Positions 28,285 through 35,269 of a DNA stretch of 43,541 nucleotides are shown piece by piece. Position 1 is the stretch's first letter; each line of letters begins with the position of its first letter. Both the position numbers and the translations under genes were made by a program. Origin of the DNA: an uncultured Bacilli bacterium (lineage in GTDB: Bacteria; Bacillota_I; Bacilli_A; RF39; UBA660); contig CALVID010000006.1 in NCBI GenBank assembly GCA_944329355.1, positions 1 through 43,541 of the forward strand, read 5' to 3'. The notes under the pieces are model-generated. The model was not told the DNA's origin. It worked only from the letters and a program-made list of their open reading frames with translations, and did not search any database.

Positions 28285-28316
28285 AAAACAAGTAATATTT
28301 TTGATAAATCACTTGT
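28285..28316 (-). terminator. Terminator of the PFOR gene
   Basis: ACAAGTGAT and ATTACTTGT pair around an AU-rich loop and are followed by six T residues on minus. The TGA stop is inside the 5' arm. It lies between convergent genes. Confidence 0.7.
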
Positions 28317-31300
28317 CTTTATTAACTAAACTCTTATAATAATCAAACCTTTTTATAGAAGCTTCTTTATTAATTTTAAGCAACTGTTCGGCCATAGAAG
28401 GATTTACTGTTTTAAGCATACTATATCTTGTTTGACTATTTAAAAACTTATCATATAAATCAAAATCTGGATTTGGACTATCTAAATTAAATGTTTCACT
28501 AAATCCATCATACCTAAATATTGGAAAATAACCACATTTAGTTGCTAATGCCTCTTCTTCCACTGAACAGCCCATACCATTCTTATTTCCATGAGAAATA
28601 CAAGGACAATAAGCTATAATAATTGATGGACCTTTATGATTCATAGCTTCATTAAAAGCCCTAATCGTCTGCATCATATTAGCACCTAGAGAAACTTGAG
28701 CTACATACACATTTGGATAAGCCATAGCTATTCTAGCTAAATCTTTTTTATAATTCTTTTTACCAGAAACAGCAAACTCAGCTACCATACCAATTGGTGT
28801 TGCTTTAGAAACTTGTCCACCAGTATTAGAATAAACCTCAGTATCTAAAACTAATATATTGATATTAGCTCCACTAGATAATACATGATCGATTCCACCA
28901 AAACCAATGTCATAAGCCCATCCATCACCACCAATAGCCCATACATTTTTAGCAACAATATAATTTTTAAGTTCTTTTAATCTAGGATGTTTATTATAAT
29001 CTATCTTTTCATAAATTTCTTTGGTAATCTCATAATCATTAGAATTATTAAGCCATTTTTCAAACAAATCATTTTTATGTTTTAGCATATAATTTCTAAC
29101 CATATTCTTACCATTCTCAAATCCCATTAAAATGCCATATCCAAACTCAGCATTATCTTCAAATAAACTATTAACCCATGGCACACTATAAGGGGCATTA
29201 GGTAATTCCCCTCCATAAATAGATGAACAACCTGTCGCATTAGCAATCACTAAATTATCATCAGAAAGCTGAGTCAACAACTTAATATAAGCCGTTTCCC
29301 CACAGCCTGCACATGCCCCATGAAAAGCAAACTTAGGTTTTTGTAATTGACTACCTTTAATTGTCCCTTTTTTAAAATTATCCTTAGGACTAACATTATC
29401 AACCAAATAATCAAAAATCATATCATTACGGCTATTTTTTAAGCTCGCAAAAGCCAATGCCTTATTACCTCTCATACCAGGGCAAGTATTTATACAAACA
29501 CCACAGCCCGTACAATTTTTAGCAGAAATAGCAATAATATAATAATAATCTTTAGCCCCTATTGCTGGCTTACATTTTTCTTTAACATAATCTGGAGCTT
29601 TATCAAACTCTTCTTTGTTAAGTAAAAATGGTCTAATAACTCCATGTGGACAAACTAGCGAACACATTGCACATTGAATACAATTCTCATTAATCCACTT
29701 AGGTACAAAATCTGAAATATTTTGCATCTCAGGCTCTGTATGCTCAAAAGAACCATCTTCAAAACCGATAAAATCAGACACCTTCAAACTATTACCTTTT
29801 CTATGTGCTAAAGACTCATAGATATTATTACTAGGAAATTCTAATTTTTCTTCCATATCATCTAATAAAATAGCTTCCAAACTAACGTCATGTAATGCCT
29901 GGATATTATTAAATGCTATATCTTTACTCTTAATTTCAAATTTTTTAACAATATATTCTTCTAATTTTTTATCAACATCATCAAAACCCAAAAGTTTAAA
30001 AATAGCTTTTTCCATAATCATACTAATTTTACGGCCCAAATGATGGTCTCTAGCTATCTTATCGGCATCTATTTTATAAACCTTAATTTTTTTCTCTTTT
30101 AAAAACCTTTTATAAGGATTTAAAATATCCAGTAAACTATTTTCATCTAAAGATGTATTTATCAAAAGAGTCCCTCCAAAAACAAGGTTTGTTATTGCAT
30201 CAAAAACATTCAAATAAGTGTCTTTAGAAATAACCACTAATTTCGGATTACTAACAAAATAAGTAGAATGAATAGGCTTATCAGAAAAACGTAAATGACT
30301 ACACGTAACACCACCAGATTTTTTAGAATCATACTCAAAATACCCTTGTACATATTTATCTTCGGCAATAATACCAAGCAATGACTTAGAAGCACTAACC
30401 ATGCCATCACTACCATAACCATAAACTAAAACTTCTGTATGATTTGTAACATTAATATTTTCATAAGGCAAAGATAAATGTGTTACATCATCATCTATAC
30501 CAATTGTAAACTCATTTTTAGGATCATCAAGCATGTCATACACAGCTTTTATCATACCAGGAGTAGTATCCTTACTAGATAAACCATAACGGCCATGGCA
30601 TATATAAACATTTTTGTTTTTTAAAGCACTCACCACATCCAAATACAAAGGTTCCCCTTCACTGCCAGCTTCTTTAGTTCTATCCAAAACAGCTATTTTT
30701 TCAGCAGTATGTGGTAACACATCCAATAAATACTTATCACTAAAAGGCCTATACAAATGAACCTCAATTAAACCAATATCGTCATTCAAATAATCGATAA
30801 CTTCTTTTATTGTTTCACAAACTGAGCCCATTGCCACAATTACCTTTTTTGCTTTTAAACTGCCATAATAATTAAAAGGTTTATAATAAGTTGAAGATAA
30901 TTCACCTATTTTTGTCATATAATCCGCCACAATATCTGCAACTTGATCATAAAATTTATTTCTAGATTCCATTTCTTGAAAATAAATATCCCCATTTTGA
31001 TTAGTTCCTCTAGTCATAGGTTCTTCATTATTAAGAGCTCTTTTTCTAAAACTTTCAAGTTTATCATATGGCACTATTTTTTTTATCTCTTCATCATCTA
31101 AAATATTAATTTTATTAAGTTCATGACTAGTTCTAAAACCATCAAAAAAATGTAAAAACGGCAAAGAAGATTCTAAACTAGATAAATGACTTACTAAAGC
31201 TAAATTATAAGCATCTTGAACAGAAGAAGATGCTAACATACAAAAACCAGAAGTGCGAGTTGCATAAATATCTTGATGATCACCAAAAATACTAAGTGCA

Positions 31301-31650
31301 TGCGTTGCTAAAGAACGAGCTGCCACATGCATAACAAAAGGAAACATTTGCCCTGCTATTTTATACATATTAGGGATCATTAAAAGAAGTCCTTGACTAG
31401 CTGTATAAGTTGTTGCTAAAATTCCAGACTGCAAAACTCCATGACATAAACCAATAGCCCCTGCTTCACTTTGCATCTCTATAACCTGAGGTACTTCTCC
31501 AAAGATATTCTTCTTTAAATTCATAGTCCATCTATCGATCAACTCAGGCATTGGACTAGAAGGGGTAATTGGATAAATACCAGCCACCTCAGTAAATAAA
31601 TACGAAGCTCTCACACAAGCTTCATTACCATCACATGTAATTTTTTTCAT
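28309..31650 (-). CDS. nifJ: Pyruvate:ferredoxin (flavodoxin) oxidoreductase
   Basis: Single-chain PFOR, 1113 residues (family usually about 1170-1200, so slightly short), oxidising pyruvate to acetyl-CoA and CO2 with reduction of ferredoxin. Order of parts: pyrimidine-binding domain I (GNEACVRASYLFTEVAGIYP, ITPSSPMPE), CoA-side domain, ferredoxin-like domain with two 4Fe-4S motifs (CIQCAMCSLVCPHG; CTGCGVCINTCPG), and the TPP domain (GACAGCGETAYIKL, GDGWAYDIGFGGIDHVL, TEVYSNTGGQVSKATP). Two further cysteines near GACAGCGE and at GCSS fit the proximal cluster. It marks strictly anaerobic metabolism. It follows the rpe-pilin gene by 14 bp with AGGGGGTAATAAAAG as ribosome site, apparently the last gene of the rlmN-prkC operon. 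Confidence 0.96.
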   Translation of the reverse strand: MKKITCDGNEACVRASYLFTEVAGIYPITPSSPMPELIDRWTMNLKKNIFGEVPQVIEMQSEAGAIGLCHGVLQSGILATTYTASQGLLLMIPNMYKIAGQMFPFVMHVAARSLATHALSIFGDHQDIYATRTSGFCMLASSSVQDAYNLALVSHLSSLESSLPFLHFFDGFRTSHELNKINILDDEEIKKIVPYDKLESFRKRALNNEEPMTRGTNQNGDIYFQEMESRNKFYDQVADIVADYMTKIGELSSTYYKPFNYYGSLKAKKVIVAMGSVCETIKEVIDYLNDDIGLIEVHLYRPFSDKYLLDVLPHTAEKIAVLDRTKEAGSEGEPLYLDVVSALKNKNVYICHGRYGLSSKDTTPGMIKAVYDMLDDPKNEFTIGIDDDVTHLSLPYENINVTNHTEVLVYGYGSDGMVSASKSLLGIIAEDKYVQGYFEYDSKKSGGVTCSHLRFSDKPIHSTYFVSNPKLVVISKDTYLNVFDAITNLVFGGTLLINTSLDENSLLDILNPYKRFLKEKKIKVYKIDADKIARDHHLGRKISMIMEKAIFKLLGFDDVDKKLEEYIVKKFEIKSKDIAFNNIQALHDVSLEAILLDDMEEKLEFPSNNIYESLAHRKGNSLKVSDFIGFEDGSFEHTEPEMQNISDFVPKWINENCIQCAMCSLVCPHGVIRPFLLNKEEFDKAPDYVKEKCKPAIGAKDYYYIIAISAKNCTGCGVCINTCPGMRGNKALAFASLKNSRNDMIFDYLVDNVSPKDNFKKGTIKGSQLQKPKFAFHGACAGCGETAYIKLLTQLSDDNLVIANATGCSSIYGGELPNAPYSVPWVNSLFEDNAEFGYGILMGFENGKNMVRNYMLKHKNDLFEKWLNNSNDYEITKEIYEKIDYNKHPRLKELKNYIVAKNVWAIGGDGWAYDIGFGGIDHVLSSGANINILVLDTEVYSNTGGQVSKATPIGMVAEFAVSGKKNYKKDLARIAMAYPNVYVAQVSLGANMMQTIRAFNEAMNHKGPSIIIAYCPCISHGNKNGMGCSVEEEALATKCGYFPIFRYDGFSETFNLDSPNPDFDLYDKFLNSQTRYSMLKTVNPSMAEQLLKINKEASIKRFDYYKSLVNKDK

Positions 31651-31664
31651 CTTTTATTACCCCC

Positions 31665-32711
31665 TTATCTATGACAAGATTCATCATCATTACCATAAAC
31701 AACAGTATAATCAAAACTACTACCATTAGTTGTTGTGATTTCTACAGATACCCCACCTGTAGAATCTACATAAGGTTTATCAGTCATAGGATTAATCATA
31801 TCATCTTCAATATAACCAGCATCTATTACCTCACCATTAATAGTAGCTCCGTCTTGTAATTGTTCAGCACTAATTGTAACTGAAGATCCAACAGCTGGTA
31901 ACAAATTAGGATGATCAAGCATCACCATCTTAGCCCCTTCAATCAAACTAGTTTGTTGAACTAAACAACTATCATAACGACTTTTTTTAATATTATTATC
32001 AATTGCTGTAATCGCTACCAATCCTAAAATACTAAGTACTACAATAACACCAAGTAATTCCGCCAAAGTAAAACCATTTCTCAAAGCTTTCTTTAATTTA
32101 TAAATTTGACTTTGATAATTTTCACTATCTGTAATAAAAGAACCAGTAACTATAATATCCGCATCTTGAACTAATTTAATAGTAGTATCATCAATACCAC
32201 CATCAACCTCAAGCAAATAATTAAGATCATTTTTCTTACGGTAATCAATTAATTCATGTAATCTATCAGTAATATCGATAAAATGTTGCCCACCAGCTCC
32301 AGCTTTTACACTCATAACTAAAACCATTTCAACACTATCCAAATAAGGATAAATTTTCTCAATATTTGTATCGGGATTAATTGCAATTCCCGCCTTAATA
32401 CCCTTACTATGAATATAATCAATAATTTCCTGAACATTCAAAGTTGATTCTATATGAAAAGTAATAAAATTAGGATTAAACAAAGCTACTTCATCAATAT
32501 ATTTTTTTAAATTTAAAACCATCAAATGGACATCAAACTTATTTTTAATTCCTCTCAAAATCTCTTTCATTTTGACAAGCGGTATAGTAGGTCTTTCAGT
32601 AAATTTGCCATCCATAACATCCACATGAATCACATCACAAACCTTATCCAATTCTCTTATTTTTGTTTCATCATCTTGAATTTTCAAAAAAGATCCAGCT
32701 ATCTTAACCAT
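31665..32711 (-). CDS. rpe: Ribulose-phosphate 3-epimerase fused to a type IV prepilin-like protein
   Basis: From the ATG at 32711 (GAGGTGGATT upstream; an earlier ATG at 32723 overlaps that site) the protein has 348 residues, against about 215-220 for Rpe. Residues about 1-208 are a complete Rpe-like (beta/alpha)8 barrel: VIHVDVMDGKF, KFDVHLMV, a divergent SVKAGAGGQHF (usually SVNPGFGGQ), LEVDGGI and IVTGSF, keeping the catalytic Asp/His set. It then runs without a stop into ALRNG|FTLAELLGVIVVL, a class III signal with the Gly/Phe cleavage site and Glu at +5, and a 135-residue pilin-like domain with two cysteines. An in-frame TTG at 32082-32084 could start a separate MRNGFTLAEL prepilin. The gene is at the usual rpe position after rsgA. 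Confidence 0.88.
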   Translation of the reverse strand: MVKIAGSFLKIQDDETKIRELDKVCDVIHVDVMDGKFTERPTIPLVKMKEILRGIKNKFDVHLMVLNLKKYIDEVALFNPNFITFHIESTLNVQEIIDYIHSKGIKAGIAINPDTNIEKIYPYLDSVEMVLVMSVKAGAGGQHFIDITDRLHELIDYRKKNDLNYLLEVDGGIDDTTIKLVQDADIIVTGSFITDSENYQSQIYKLKKALRNGFTLAELLGVIVVLSILGLVAITAIDNNIKKSRYDSCLVQQTSLIEGAKMVMLDHPNLLPAVGSSVTISAEQLQDGATINGEVIDAGYIEDDMINPMTDKPYVDSTGGVSVEITTTNGSSFDYTVVYGNDDESCHR

Positions 32712-32719
32712 AATCCACC

Positions 32720-33547
32720 TCATTTCAAAAAATTCAAATAATTATCATATCTACTCTTTAAAATTGTTCCATCTAAAACCTTTTCTTTAACTCTACATTT
32801 CTTTTCATGTACATGAAAACAATCTCTAAATTGACACTCATCTCGATACACATTAAATTCAGTAAAATTATCCCTAATATCTTCTTTACTCATCCCCGTA
32901 AACTCCAAAGCTGAAAAACCAGGAGTATCGGCTACTAAACCACCACACAATTCAAACAATTCAGTATGTCTAGTAGTATGTTTTCCCCTATTTAAAGCTA
33001 AAGAAATTTCTCCTGTTTTCAACTTTAAAGTTGAATCCAGTTTGTTTAAAAGAGTACTCTTTCCAGCTCCACTTTGGCCAGTAAAAACACACACTTTATC
33101 TTTAAATATTTTTTTAATTAAATTAATTTCATCATTCATATAAACTTCATATCCGATTTTTTTATAATATTCAATAACCGGTTTTAATTTTAAAAGTTCC
33201 TCTTTCTCTAATAAATCTGCTTTTGTAAAAATAATCACCGGTTTAATCCTATTATACTCACATATTACCAAAAATTTGTCTAAAAGATTGGAAGAAAAAT
33301 CAGGCTTTTTTAAACTTGTAATAATTATTGCCATATCTATATTAGCAATCACTGGTCTAATAAGCTCATTTTTTCTAGGTAATATCTCCGTGATATAAAG
33401 ATTATTCTCATCAAAAATAACTTCATCACCAACCATAGGCGAAAGGCCCATGTTTCTAAATTTTCCACGGGCTTTACACACATATAGTTTATTTAAATTT
33501 TTAACCGTATAATCATTACTAATTGTTTTAATAATTTTTCCTTCCAT
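32720..33547 (-). CDS. rsgA: Ribosome small-subunit-dependent GTPase RsgA
   Basis: A circularly permuted GTPase aiding late 30S maturation, 275 residues. An N-terminal OB fold (GKFRNMGLSPMVGDEVIFDE) is followed by G4 (TKADLL), G1 (GQSGAGKSTLLN) and G3 (DTPGFSALE) in permuted order. The C-terminal zinc site is in YRDECQFRDCFHVHEKKC. Known as CpgA/YloQ in Bacillus, where it lies between prkC and rpe and is a PrkC substrate, exactly as here. Starts 3 bp after the prkC stop; its 3' end is 8 bp from the rpe-pilin start. Confidence 0.96.
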   Translation of the reverse strand: MEGKIIKTISNDYTVKNLNKLYVCKARGKFRNMGLSPMVGDEVIFDENNLYITEILPRKNELIRPVIANIDMAIIITSLKKPDFSSNLLDKFLVICEYNRIKPVIIFTKADLLEKEELLKLKPVIEYYKKIGYEVYMNDEINLIKKIFKDKVCVFTGQSGAGKSTLLNKLDSTLKLKTGEISLALNRGKHTTRHTELFELCGGLVADTPGFSALEFTGMSKEDIRDNFTEFNVYRDECQFRDCFHVHEKKCRVKEKVLDGTILKSRYDNYLNFLK

Positions 33548-33550
33548 TTA

Positions 33551-35269
33551 TTACATATCTCCAGTATCTCGTGTTTCTGTTGCACTCTCAATATCAGGAG
33601 CTTTTTCCGGATTCTTAACAACTTTAATTCTCAAATTAGCACCAGAACTAACTTTACTACCTGCAGCCATATTCTGATAAGTAACTATACCATTTTGTTT
33701 ACTACCATCCTCTACATAAGTAACATTTAAAGTAAGTCCATTTTCATCACAGAATTTTTTAACATCTGCTTCTGTATAAGTACCATCAGTAAAATTAGGA
33801 TAACTAATATAAACATTTGGAATAACTAAAGTAATAGTATCACCTTCGCCTAATTTTACTCCAGGTTCCACATCTTGTTCTAAAATAGTTCCCTCTACTG
33901 GATTTTCTTCTTTAGAAACATCTTTTTTATCAATAATAACATTTATTCCAGCTTCTTCTAATTTTTCTTTTACTTTTTCATAGTTTTCTCCCGTATAATC
34001 TTCAATTTCTATTTTTTCAGAACCAGTTGAAACTATCAAAGTAACCTCTGAACCCTCTTTCAAAGTCTCGCCTATCTCTGGATCAGTACCTATAACTTTA
34101 TCTTCTTCAACTTCATCACTAGCTTCTTTTTTAGTCTTACCTACAACCTCAAAGCCTTTATCCTCTAAAGTACTCCTAGCTTGTTTAACCGTCATTCCTT
34201 GAACATCAGGAATTTCTATATCTGGCTTATCAGAAATTTTTGGCCACAAAATAAATACAAAAAGCATAGCTGCAATTAAAACCCCAACAATTGTTCCTAC
34301 AACAATTAAAGCTTTATTCATTCTCTTATCTTTTTTATTCTCTTCTTTCTCCGCATTCCTAGCTGCTCTACCTTCTCTAGGCATTTCTTTATCCTCAAAA
34401 TTTTTCTCAGGATATTTATAAATAACCTTAGGTTCATTGAATCTATTTTTATCCAAAGCCGTTTCTAAATCATCATGCATATCCCAAGCTGACTCATAAC
34501 GATTTTTAGGATTTTTAGCCGAAGCTCTTAAAATAATATTTTCGATCGATTGTGGCATTTCAGGATCATATTCACAAATACTAGGAATAGGCTCATTCAT
34601 ATGTTTAATAGCCACTTCTACTGGATTTTCTCCTTTAAAAGGTACATGACCTGTAACAAGTTCATACATCAAAATACCTAAAGAATATATATCACTTCTA
34701 GTAGTAGCCGCCCCACCATTAGCCTGCTCAGGTGGGATATAATAAACCGTTCCCATTACACTATTAGTCTGTGTAAACTCTCCAGCATTTAAAGCAACAG
34801 CAATTCCAAAATCCATTATTTTAACTCTACCGTCCTCTAAAATAACTACATTTTGAGGTTTAATATCTCTATGAATAATATAGCTTTCATGAGCATGTGC
34901 TACCGCACTAGTAAGTTGAAGCATAATATCGACAACTTCTGGTAAAGTTAAACTACCTCTTTTTTTAATTAACTGTTTTAAAGTAAGTCCTTGAACGTAC
35001 TCCATAACAATAAAATATTTGCCATCATCTTCTCCTACATCATAAACTTCAACAATGTTAGGATCATTTAAACTGCTAGCTGAAATAGCTTCTCTTTGAA
35101 AACGTCTCACAAATTTTTCGTCTTCAGCTAAATCACCTCTTAAAATCTTAACAGCAACTTTCCTATCTAAAATAGTATCCTTAGCTAAATAAACATTAGC
35201 CATGCCACCTTCACCAATAGCTCTAATAATTTCATAACGATCATTAATAAGTTGTCCCCTTGTTATCAT
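33551..35269 (-). CDS. prkC: Serine/threonine protein kinase PrkC with PASTA repeats
   Basis: 572 residues. The cytoplasmic kinase domain (about 10-270) has GEGGMANVYLAK, Lys at about 41 (VAVKIL), HRDIKPQN (133-140), DFG (153-155) and an activation loop with TQTNSVMGTVYYIPPEQ. A basic juxtamembrane linker is followed by one membrane helix (ALIVVGTIVGVLIAAMLFVF, about 320-339). Outside there are three PASTA repeats: about 349-418 (PDVQGMTVKQARSTLEDKGF), 419-487 and 488-555. PASTA domains sense muropeptides and lipid II; in Bacillus PrkC governs spore germination and wall synthesis. Four-base ATGA overlap with the prpC stop, with AAAGGAGG in prpC as ribosome site. Confidence 0.97.
   Translation of the reverse strand: MITRGQLINDRYEIIRAIGEGGMANVYLAKDTILDRKVAVKILRGDLAEDEKFVRRFQREAISASSLNDPNIVEVYDVGEDDGKYFIVMEYVQGLTLKQLIKKRGSLTLPEVVDIMLQLTSAVAHAHESYIIHRDIKPQNVVILEDGRVKIMDFGIAVALNAGEFTQTNSVMGTVYYIPPEQANGGAATTRSDIYSLGILMYELVTGHVPFKGENPVEVAIKHMNEPIPSICEYDPEMPQSIENIILRASAKNPKNRYESAWDMHDDLETALDKNRFNEPKVIYKYPEKNFEDKEMPREGRAARNAEKEENKKDKRMNKALIVVGTIVGVLIAAMLFVFILWPKISDKPDIEIPDVQGMTVKQARSTLEDKGFEVVGKTKKEASDEVEEDKVIGTDPEIGETLKEGSEVTLIVSTGSEKIEIEDYTGENYEKVKEKLEEAGINVIIDKKDVSKEENPVEGTILEQDVEPGVKLGEGDTITLVIPNVYISYPNFTDGTYTEADVKKFCDENGLTLNVTYVEDGSKQNGIVTYQNMAAGSKVSSGANLRIKVVKNPEKAPDIESATETRDTGDM

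Follow-up and report, generated by a model that had tools for sequence, protein, structure and literature searches.

An in-frame fusion of ribulose-phosphate epimerase to a type IV prepilin in uncultured Bacilli: a probable two-product precursor

Results and Discussion

A single open reading frame within a 43,541-nucleotide stretch of DNA from an uncultured Bacilli bacterium (the window, i.e., the whole stretch that was analyzed) was found to encode ribulose-phosphate epimerase (Rpe) followed, with no stop codon between them, by a type IV prepilin. The fusion is probably a two-product precursor, from which prepilin peptidase would release the 213-residue Rpe as the leader of the pilin; this cleavage is inferred and was not shown. 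When 44 genomes of the genus, each a separate species, were surveyed, the two coding regions were fused in 24 and split in 19, and the locus was cut by a contig end in one (G434). The states of the locus across the genus were fused, split and INTERMEDIATE. Coordinates of the fusion and its neighbors are listed in Table 1.

Table 1. Features of the rpe-pilin fusion and its neighbors (positions in the window)
Feature	Position	Strand	Basis
Shine-Dalgarno (GAGGTGG) of the fusion frame, overlapping the end of rsgA	32715..32721	-	sequence; duplex energy
Rpe module, residues 1-213, N-terminal 'leader', full barrel with H29, D31, H62 and D170	32073..32711	-	profile and structure matches
Gly213 codon, predicted P1 residue of prepilin-peptidase cleavage (G↓F)	32073..32075	-	motif; conservation
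Junction KLKKALRNG↓FTLAELLG, residues 205-221, within the most constrained stretch of the frame	32049..32099	-	pN/pS
Mature type IV pilin (predicted), 135 aa, helix alpha1 (FTLAELLGVIVVLSILGLVAI...) and small beta head, two cysteines	31668..32072	-	N_methyl; fold model
Stop codon of the fusion	31665..31667	-	open reading frame
In-frame TTG, proposed internal start, rejected	32082..32084	-	Shine-Dalgarno energies; conservation
rsgA (ribosome small subunit GTPase A), upstream, conserved neighbor	32720..33547	-	gene neighborhood comparison
prkC, Ser/Thr kinase with PASTA repeats, upstream operon gene	33551..35269	-	gene neighborhood comparison
nifJ-type pyruvate:ferredoxin oxidoreductase, directly downstream, conserved neighbor	28309..31650	-	gene neighborhood comparison

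The fused frame and its Rpe half

The fused frame spans 348 aa without a stop codon from 32711 to 31665 and consists of Rpe (residues 1-213) and the prepilin. An earlier examination of the same DNA (the sequence-only reading) gave no strand for this frame, which was established here to be the minus strand. The open reading frame finder prolonged the frame to an upstream ATG at 32723 (352-aa form). Judged from the sequence, the true start is 32711 and the ATG at 32723 is not used, since a strong Shine-Dalgarno is present at 32711 (duplex energy of -13.7 kcal/mol) and, in relatives, a stop codon separates the upstream ATG from MVKIAG.

The Rpe half was matched by PF00834 (E=8.6e-46) and NF004076 (E=3.4e-56, 190 bits against a cut-off of 165), and its TIGR01163 score of 166 bits was under that profile's stricter cut-off of 212.6. 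The closest solved structure was the Streptococcus pyogenes enzyme (2fli), to which Rpe aligned up to chain residue 218 of 220, almost the C-terminus of that enzyme; the model of Rpe compared to the 2fli chains gave Foldseek TM-scores of 0.88-0.91 on the target. The metal and acid/base residues H29, D31, H62 and D170 were invariant in 19/19 fused orthologues. The fusion shares with ordinary Rpe (EC 5.1.3.1) a complete barrel and the catalytic residues, and differs in that its C-terminal helix continues into a prepilin cleavage site and not into a stop.

The fusion was the sole Rpe found in the genome. All 15 clade members searched encode phosphoketolase; no transketolase was found in any of these 15, nor in several split relatives. 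The genomes are 63-90% complete, such that a single absence is weak evidence, but absence from all 15 is telling. Based on these gene contents, Rpe probably feeds xylulose-5-phosphate to phosphoketolase, although its activity is inferred. The possibility that Rpe serves only as a dead leader was considered and is unlikely, given the invariance of its catalytic residues and the presence of phosphoketolase, which can consume what Rpe makes. Phosphoketolase was also found to be nearly universal in the genus genomes, with an apparent phosphoketolase-only pentose route.

The pilin half and the pilus machinery

The class III signal motif begins at G213 (G↓FTLAELLGVIVVLSILGLVAI) and is followed by the 135-aa pilin, in which the cysteines and Glu5 are kept. 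The N_methyl domain was detected at residues 215-237 of the 352-aa form with 20.0 bits, just below the Pfam cut-off of 21.2, and with 24.8 bits, above the cut-off, in the genome scan. In the fold model of the pilin (pLDDT 85), a long helix extends over residues 3-53 and is accompanied by a small sheet, with no confident match to a solved structure; the best match was to C. difficile PilW and was weak (E=0.03). The presence of full-length Rpe with its catalytic Asp/His residues, of a prepilin in the same frame, and of a cleavage motif with Gly(-1), Phe(+1) and Glu(+5) had been claimed by the sequence-only reading, and all three claims were borne out by the open reading frame, the Rpe profiles and 2fli match, the invariant residues, the motif itself and the recurrence of the fusion in relatives.

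The sequence-only reading had left it to the rest of the genome to supply a prepilin peptidase and a pilus ATPase, and both are encoded. The peptidase (PF06750 and PF01478, with the Asp motifs SDYHYLVIPD and GGGDIKLL) adjoins a PilC-like gene on contig C20, while the PilB-like ATPase is at C3:38539-39915 and the PilC-like platform protein at C20:1679-3436. Thus, of the features that define a type IV prepilin system, the class III signal motif is met, and a peptidase with catalytic aspartates, an ATPase and a platform protein are present. The short hydrophilic leader is not met: a folded Rpe of 213 residues stands before the cut site, with its last ~9 residues leader-like. Stated differently, the fusion shares with type IV prepilins (N_methyl PF07963; PilD-type peptidases PF01478) the Gly(-1), Phe(+1), Glu(+5), hydrophobic helix, basic residues before the cut and matching peptidase; by contrast to them, it carries a whole enzyme and not a short peptide before the cut. 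The other 16 N_methyl pilins of the same genome have short leaders. Both halves of the fusion look functional by these comparisons, with neither enzymatic activity nor a pilus shown.

Other enzyme-prepilin fusions were sought in the genus, and the long-frame pilin matches proved to be short leaders with C-terminal extensions; among those checked, Rpe was the only N-terminal pilin partner observed. The 1.17-Mb genome G000 was found to encode at least 17 N_methyl pilins (on contigs C3, C7, C8, C10, C12, C14, C26, C31, C32 and C39), several of them modular pilins with C-terminal extensions, encoded by frames of 377-598 aa. A second, Tad-like cluster in this genome (L096; G000:C3:25220-30251) encodes a CpaE-like ATPase, a T2SSE ATPase, two T2SSF proteins and TadE-like small proteins.

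Constraint at the junction and proposed processing

In 13 species of the clade that includes the window, the amino acids of KLKKxLRNG↓FTLAELLGVI (x is A, S or V) were unchanged and the codons varied (GGT, GGC or GGA for Gly213 and four codons each for Arg211 and Leu210). Of 334 windows of 15 codons analyzed for pN/pS, the eight lowest all span G213, with a minimum of 0.049, compared to 0.384 for the Rpe body and 0.471 for the pilin past its helix. Pairwise identity in the fused species was 0.926 for the last 8 residues before the Gly versus 0.652 for the Rpe body. By contrast, split species that had diverged to a similar degree showed lower identity in the final 8 Rpe residues (0.522) than in the body (0.635), and the constraint on the Rpe tail is thus a property of the fused form. 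The residue at -1 was Gly in 23 of the 24 fused species and Ala in one (G436), these being the two residues with which a prepilin leader may end (PMC10191384); Phe(+1) and Glu(+5) were present in all. This constraint shows that translation continues across the joint and that the residues flanking the cut are important.

We propose the following processing. One ribosome would make the 348-aa chain, a step supported by the conservation across the joint and the lack of an internal start. Membrane insertion of prepilins is co-translational and leaves the leader on the cytoplasmic side, the face of the membrane at which the peptidase works (PMC10191384). From this biology, the pilin helix of the fusion would be inserted N-inside via SRP/Sec, and the folded Rpe would stay cytoplasmic, held by its last helix. 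Prepilin peptidase would then cut after G213 in a short flexible hinge, an inference from the intact and strongly selected site, and would probably methylate F214. Soluble Rpe ending in KALRNG would be set free and supply xylulose-5-phosphate to phosphoketolase, and the mature pilin would remain for assembly. In the model of the fusion, a low-confidence hinge (pLDDT below 50) lies at 213-216 between helices 199-210 and 216-246 and is predicted to be a suitable place for the cut. Of the two alternatives offered by the sequence-only reading, the first, in which the entire enzyme is the leader and is released by the peptidase, is the one favored by the comparative evidence.

There are limits to this reading, as no proteomics, cleavage assay or observed pilus supports it and tolerance of the peptidase for a folded, perhaps oligomeric, domain of 213 aa is unproven. 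According to the model, no more than about 3-4 residues separate the folded Rpe from the scissile bond, and access could be hindered. A prepilin leader of 18 aa has already been termed much longer than canonical (PMC4832360).

This geometry, in which the folded enzyme might block the peptidase, together with the absence of demonstrated cleavage, is what supports an uncut fusion. In that case, the pilin helix would be a signal anchor that keeps Rpe attached to the membrane's inner face; Rpe would still be active toward the cytoplasm, and the pilin head would be a fixed domain outside. Were the fusion uncut, however, drift would be predicted at Gly/Ala(-1), Phe(+1) and Glu(+5), whereas the junction is instead the most constrained stretch of the frame and these three positions were retained by all of the separate fusions. 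Glu5 is, moreover, thought to be important for assembly of the cleaved pilin. We consider permanent tethering unlikely.

Far less support was found for a second, short prepilin made alongside the fusion from an internal start near the junction. The sequence-only reading had proposed such a start at the in-frame TTG and had positioned this codon correctly (32082-32084). Within the 16-species clade of the window, however, TTG at -3 was found in only four members (G000, G032, G004 and G430), and its Shine-Dalgarno energies were at background (-1.8 to +0.4 kcal/mol). By comparison, the split pilins of the first set had an ATG and a Shine-Dalgarno in 17 of 17 tested (-8.3 to -13.6 kcal/mol). The TTG start was rejected for the clade on both grounds, non-conservation and lack of a Shine-Dalgarno. 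No credible start near the joint, i.e., no nearby ATG with a Shine-Dalgarno, was detected in this clade, nor in G006, G005, G433 or G436; just scattered TTG and GTG codons were seen, and the ATG at -11 in G002 and G004 had weak or no pairing. Three other relatives (G023, G026 and G035) are fused, yet retain an in-frame internal ATG with a true-looking Shine-Dalgarno (-7.5 to -8.1 kcal/mol), and internal initiation may well operate there. In a further fused relative (G001) the internal ATG is present and the Shine-Dalgarno absent (-0.3). As an account of the fusion as a whole, internal initiation is very unlikely.

Recurrence and origin of the fusion

With 23 other fused species, the fusion is conserved in relatives. 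The sequence-only reading would have been refuted by separate rpe and pilin genes in relatives together with an indel error in the window; the first part was observed (19 species), and the second was contradicted by the 23 other fused species. Although several relatives do have separate genes and every genome used is a draft metagenome assembly, an indel from assembly or sequencing is ruled out as a practical matter by 24 fused species in several fusion clades on the tree and by a protein conserved across the joint while synonymous sites vary freely. Since it recurs in 24 of the 44 genomes, the fusion is, on this comparative evidence, neither chance nor indel error. The full protein was also used to search 395 genomes of the class, and none of the matches listed from beyond the genus ran into the pilin in an open frame.

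A species tree was built from RsgA and NifJ with no columns of the fusion itself. On this tree the fusion state changes at least five times; starred branches force five changes in the 36-row tree and four when 43 rows and outgroups are used. The changes may correspond to about three fusions and two re-splittings or to up to six separate fusions. The pilin gene of split species occupies the same operon position and starts at or over the rpe stop (overlapping or abutting), mostly in another frame (e.g., ATGAATAAA).

The fusion probably originated through a small frame change that joined rpe to a pilin gene with which its end was already overlapping. Because the protease would separate the products after translation, undoing the fusion, the redundant start of the pilin would be free to decay, and the fusion would become obligate. 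G023, G026 and G035, which are fused with the start kept, are plausible intermediates and fit those expected by this route. A neutral origin is the likeliest. The coupling of metabolism to a surface appendage, as suggested by the sequence-only reading, was not shown, and neutral fusion of overlapping genes explains the data equally. A benefit, such as 1:1 output or membrane-near Rpe, is possible, with no evidence in its favor.

Precedents and implications

The usual view of prepilin leaders is that they are short peptides to be discarded. Examples of precursors that are cleaved to give two functional proteins are Bradyrhizobium fbcH (cytochrome b/c1) and ubiquitin-ribosomal protein fusions, which have in common with the Rpe-prepilin fusion one gene, one chain and two useful products via a housekeeping protease. 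Here, by contrast, the cut would be made by prepilin peptidase and would yield an enzyme of the cytosol and a subunit of the pilus, whose functions are unrelated. An extra functional domain is likewise carried by modular pilins, among them Streptococcus sanguinis PilB, but on the outer part of the pilin, whereas that of the fusion is N-terminal, cytoplasmic and removable (PMC8179133). Among the open-access papers searched, none was found to describe an enzyme-prepilin fusion, and a literature search for bacterial polyprotein precedents gave unrelated papers only. The parts are known; a whole enzyme as prepilin leader would be new.

We think it likely that prepilin peptidase acts here as a polyprotein processor, with a folded metabolic enzyme as the leader, liberation of that enzyme dependent on pilus maturation, and a repeated ratchet from overlapping genes behind the arrangement. 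If so, a folded cytosolic domain can be cut by the peptidase at its membrane-proximal end, the output of two unrelated proteins is fixed at a 1:1 ratio, and freeing a metabolic enzyme requires pilus maturation. In annotation, such proteins would wrongly be taken for simple epimerases or for frameshift errors. As living relatives display separate genes, a fusion with the start kept and a fusion with the start lost, the origin of an obligate gene fusion is directly testable.

Operon setting and variation among relatives

On the minus strand, the gene order is rlmN-prpC-prkC-rsgA-[rpe-pilin]-nifJ. The nifJ-type gene begins just 14 bases past the fusion stop and may therefore share a transcript with the rlmN-prpC-prkC-rsgA-rpe operon. 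In the 36 genus genomes first examined, rsgA was 5' and nifJ 3' of rpe-pilin wherever the contig reached, with one extra gene interrupting this neighborhood in G003. In the sister genera inspected, prkC-rsgA-rpe was kept, different genes came next and an adjacent pilin was absent. Because the genus keeps rpe-pilin and the sister genera have other genes after rpe, the pilin probably joined the operon in the ancestor of the genus, as judged by gene order.

The pilin itself was found to vary among relatives. Two split relatives, L126 (G431) and L048 (G033), have an rpe-linked pilin with a large C-terminal extension, in frames of about 490 and 811 aa; that of G431 contains repeated units such as SLTSLDLSGYDTSNVT. 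In one fused orthologue, L007 (G014), L086, the pilin head contains an insert of about 10 residues (VQLLQNGSVINSKALTNGG).
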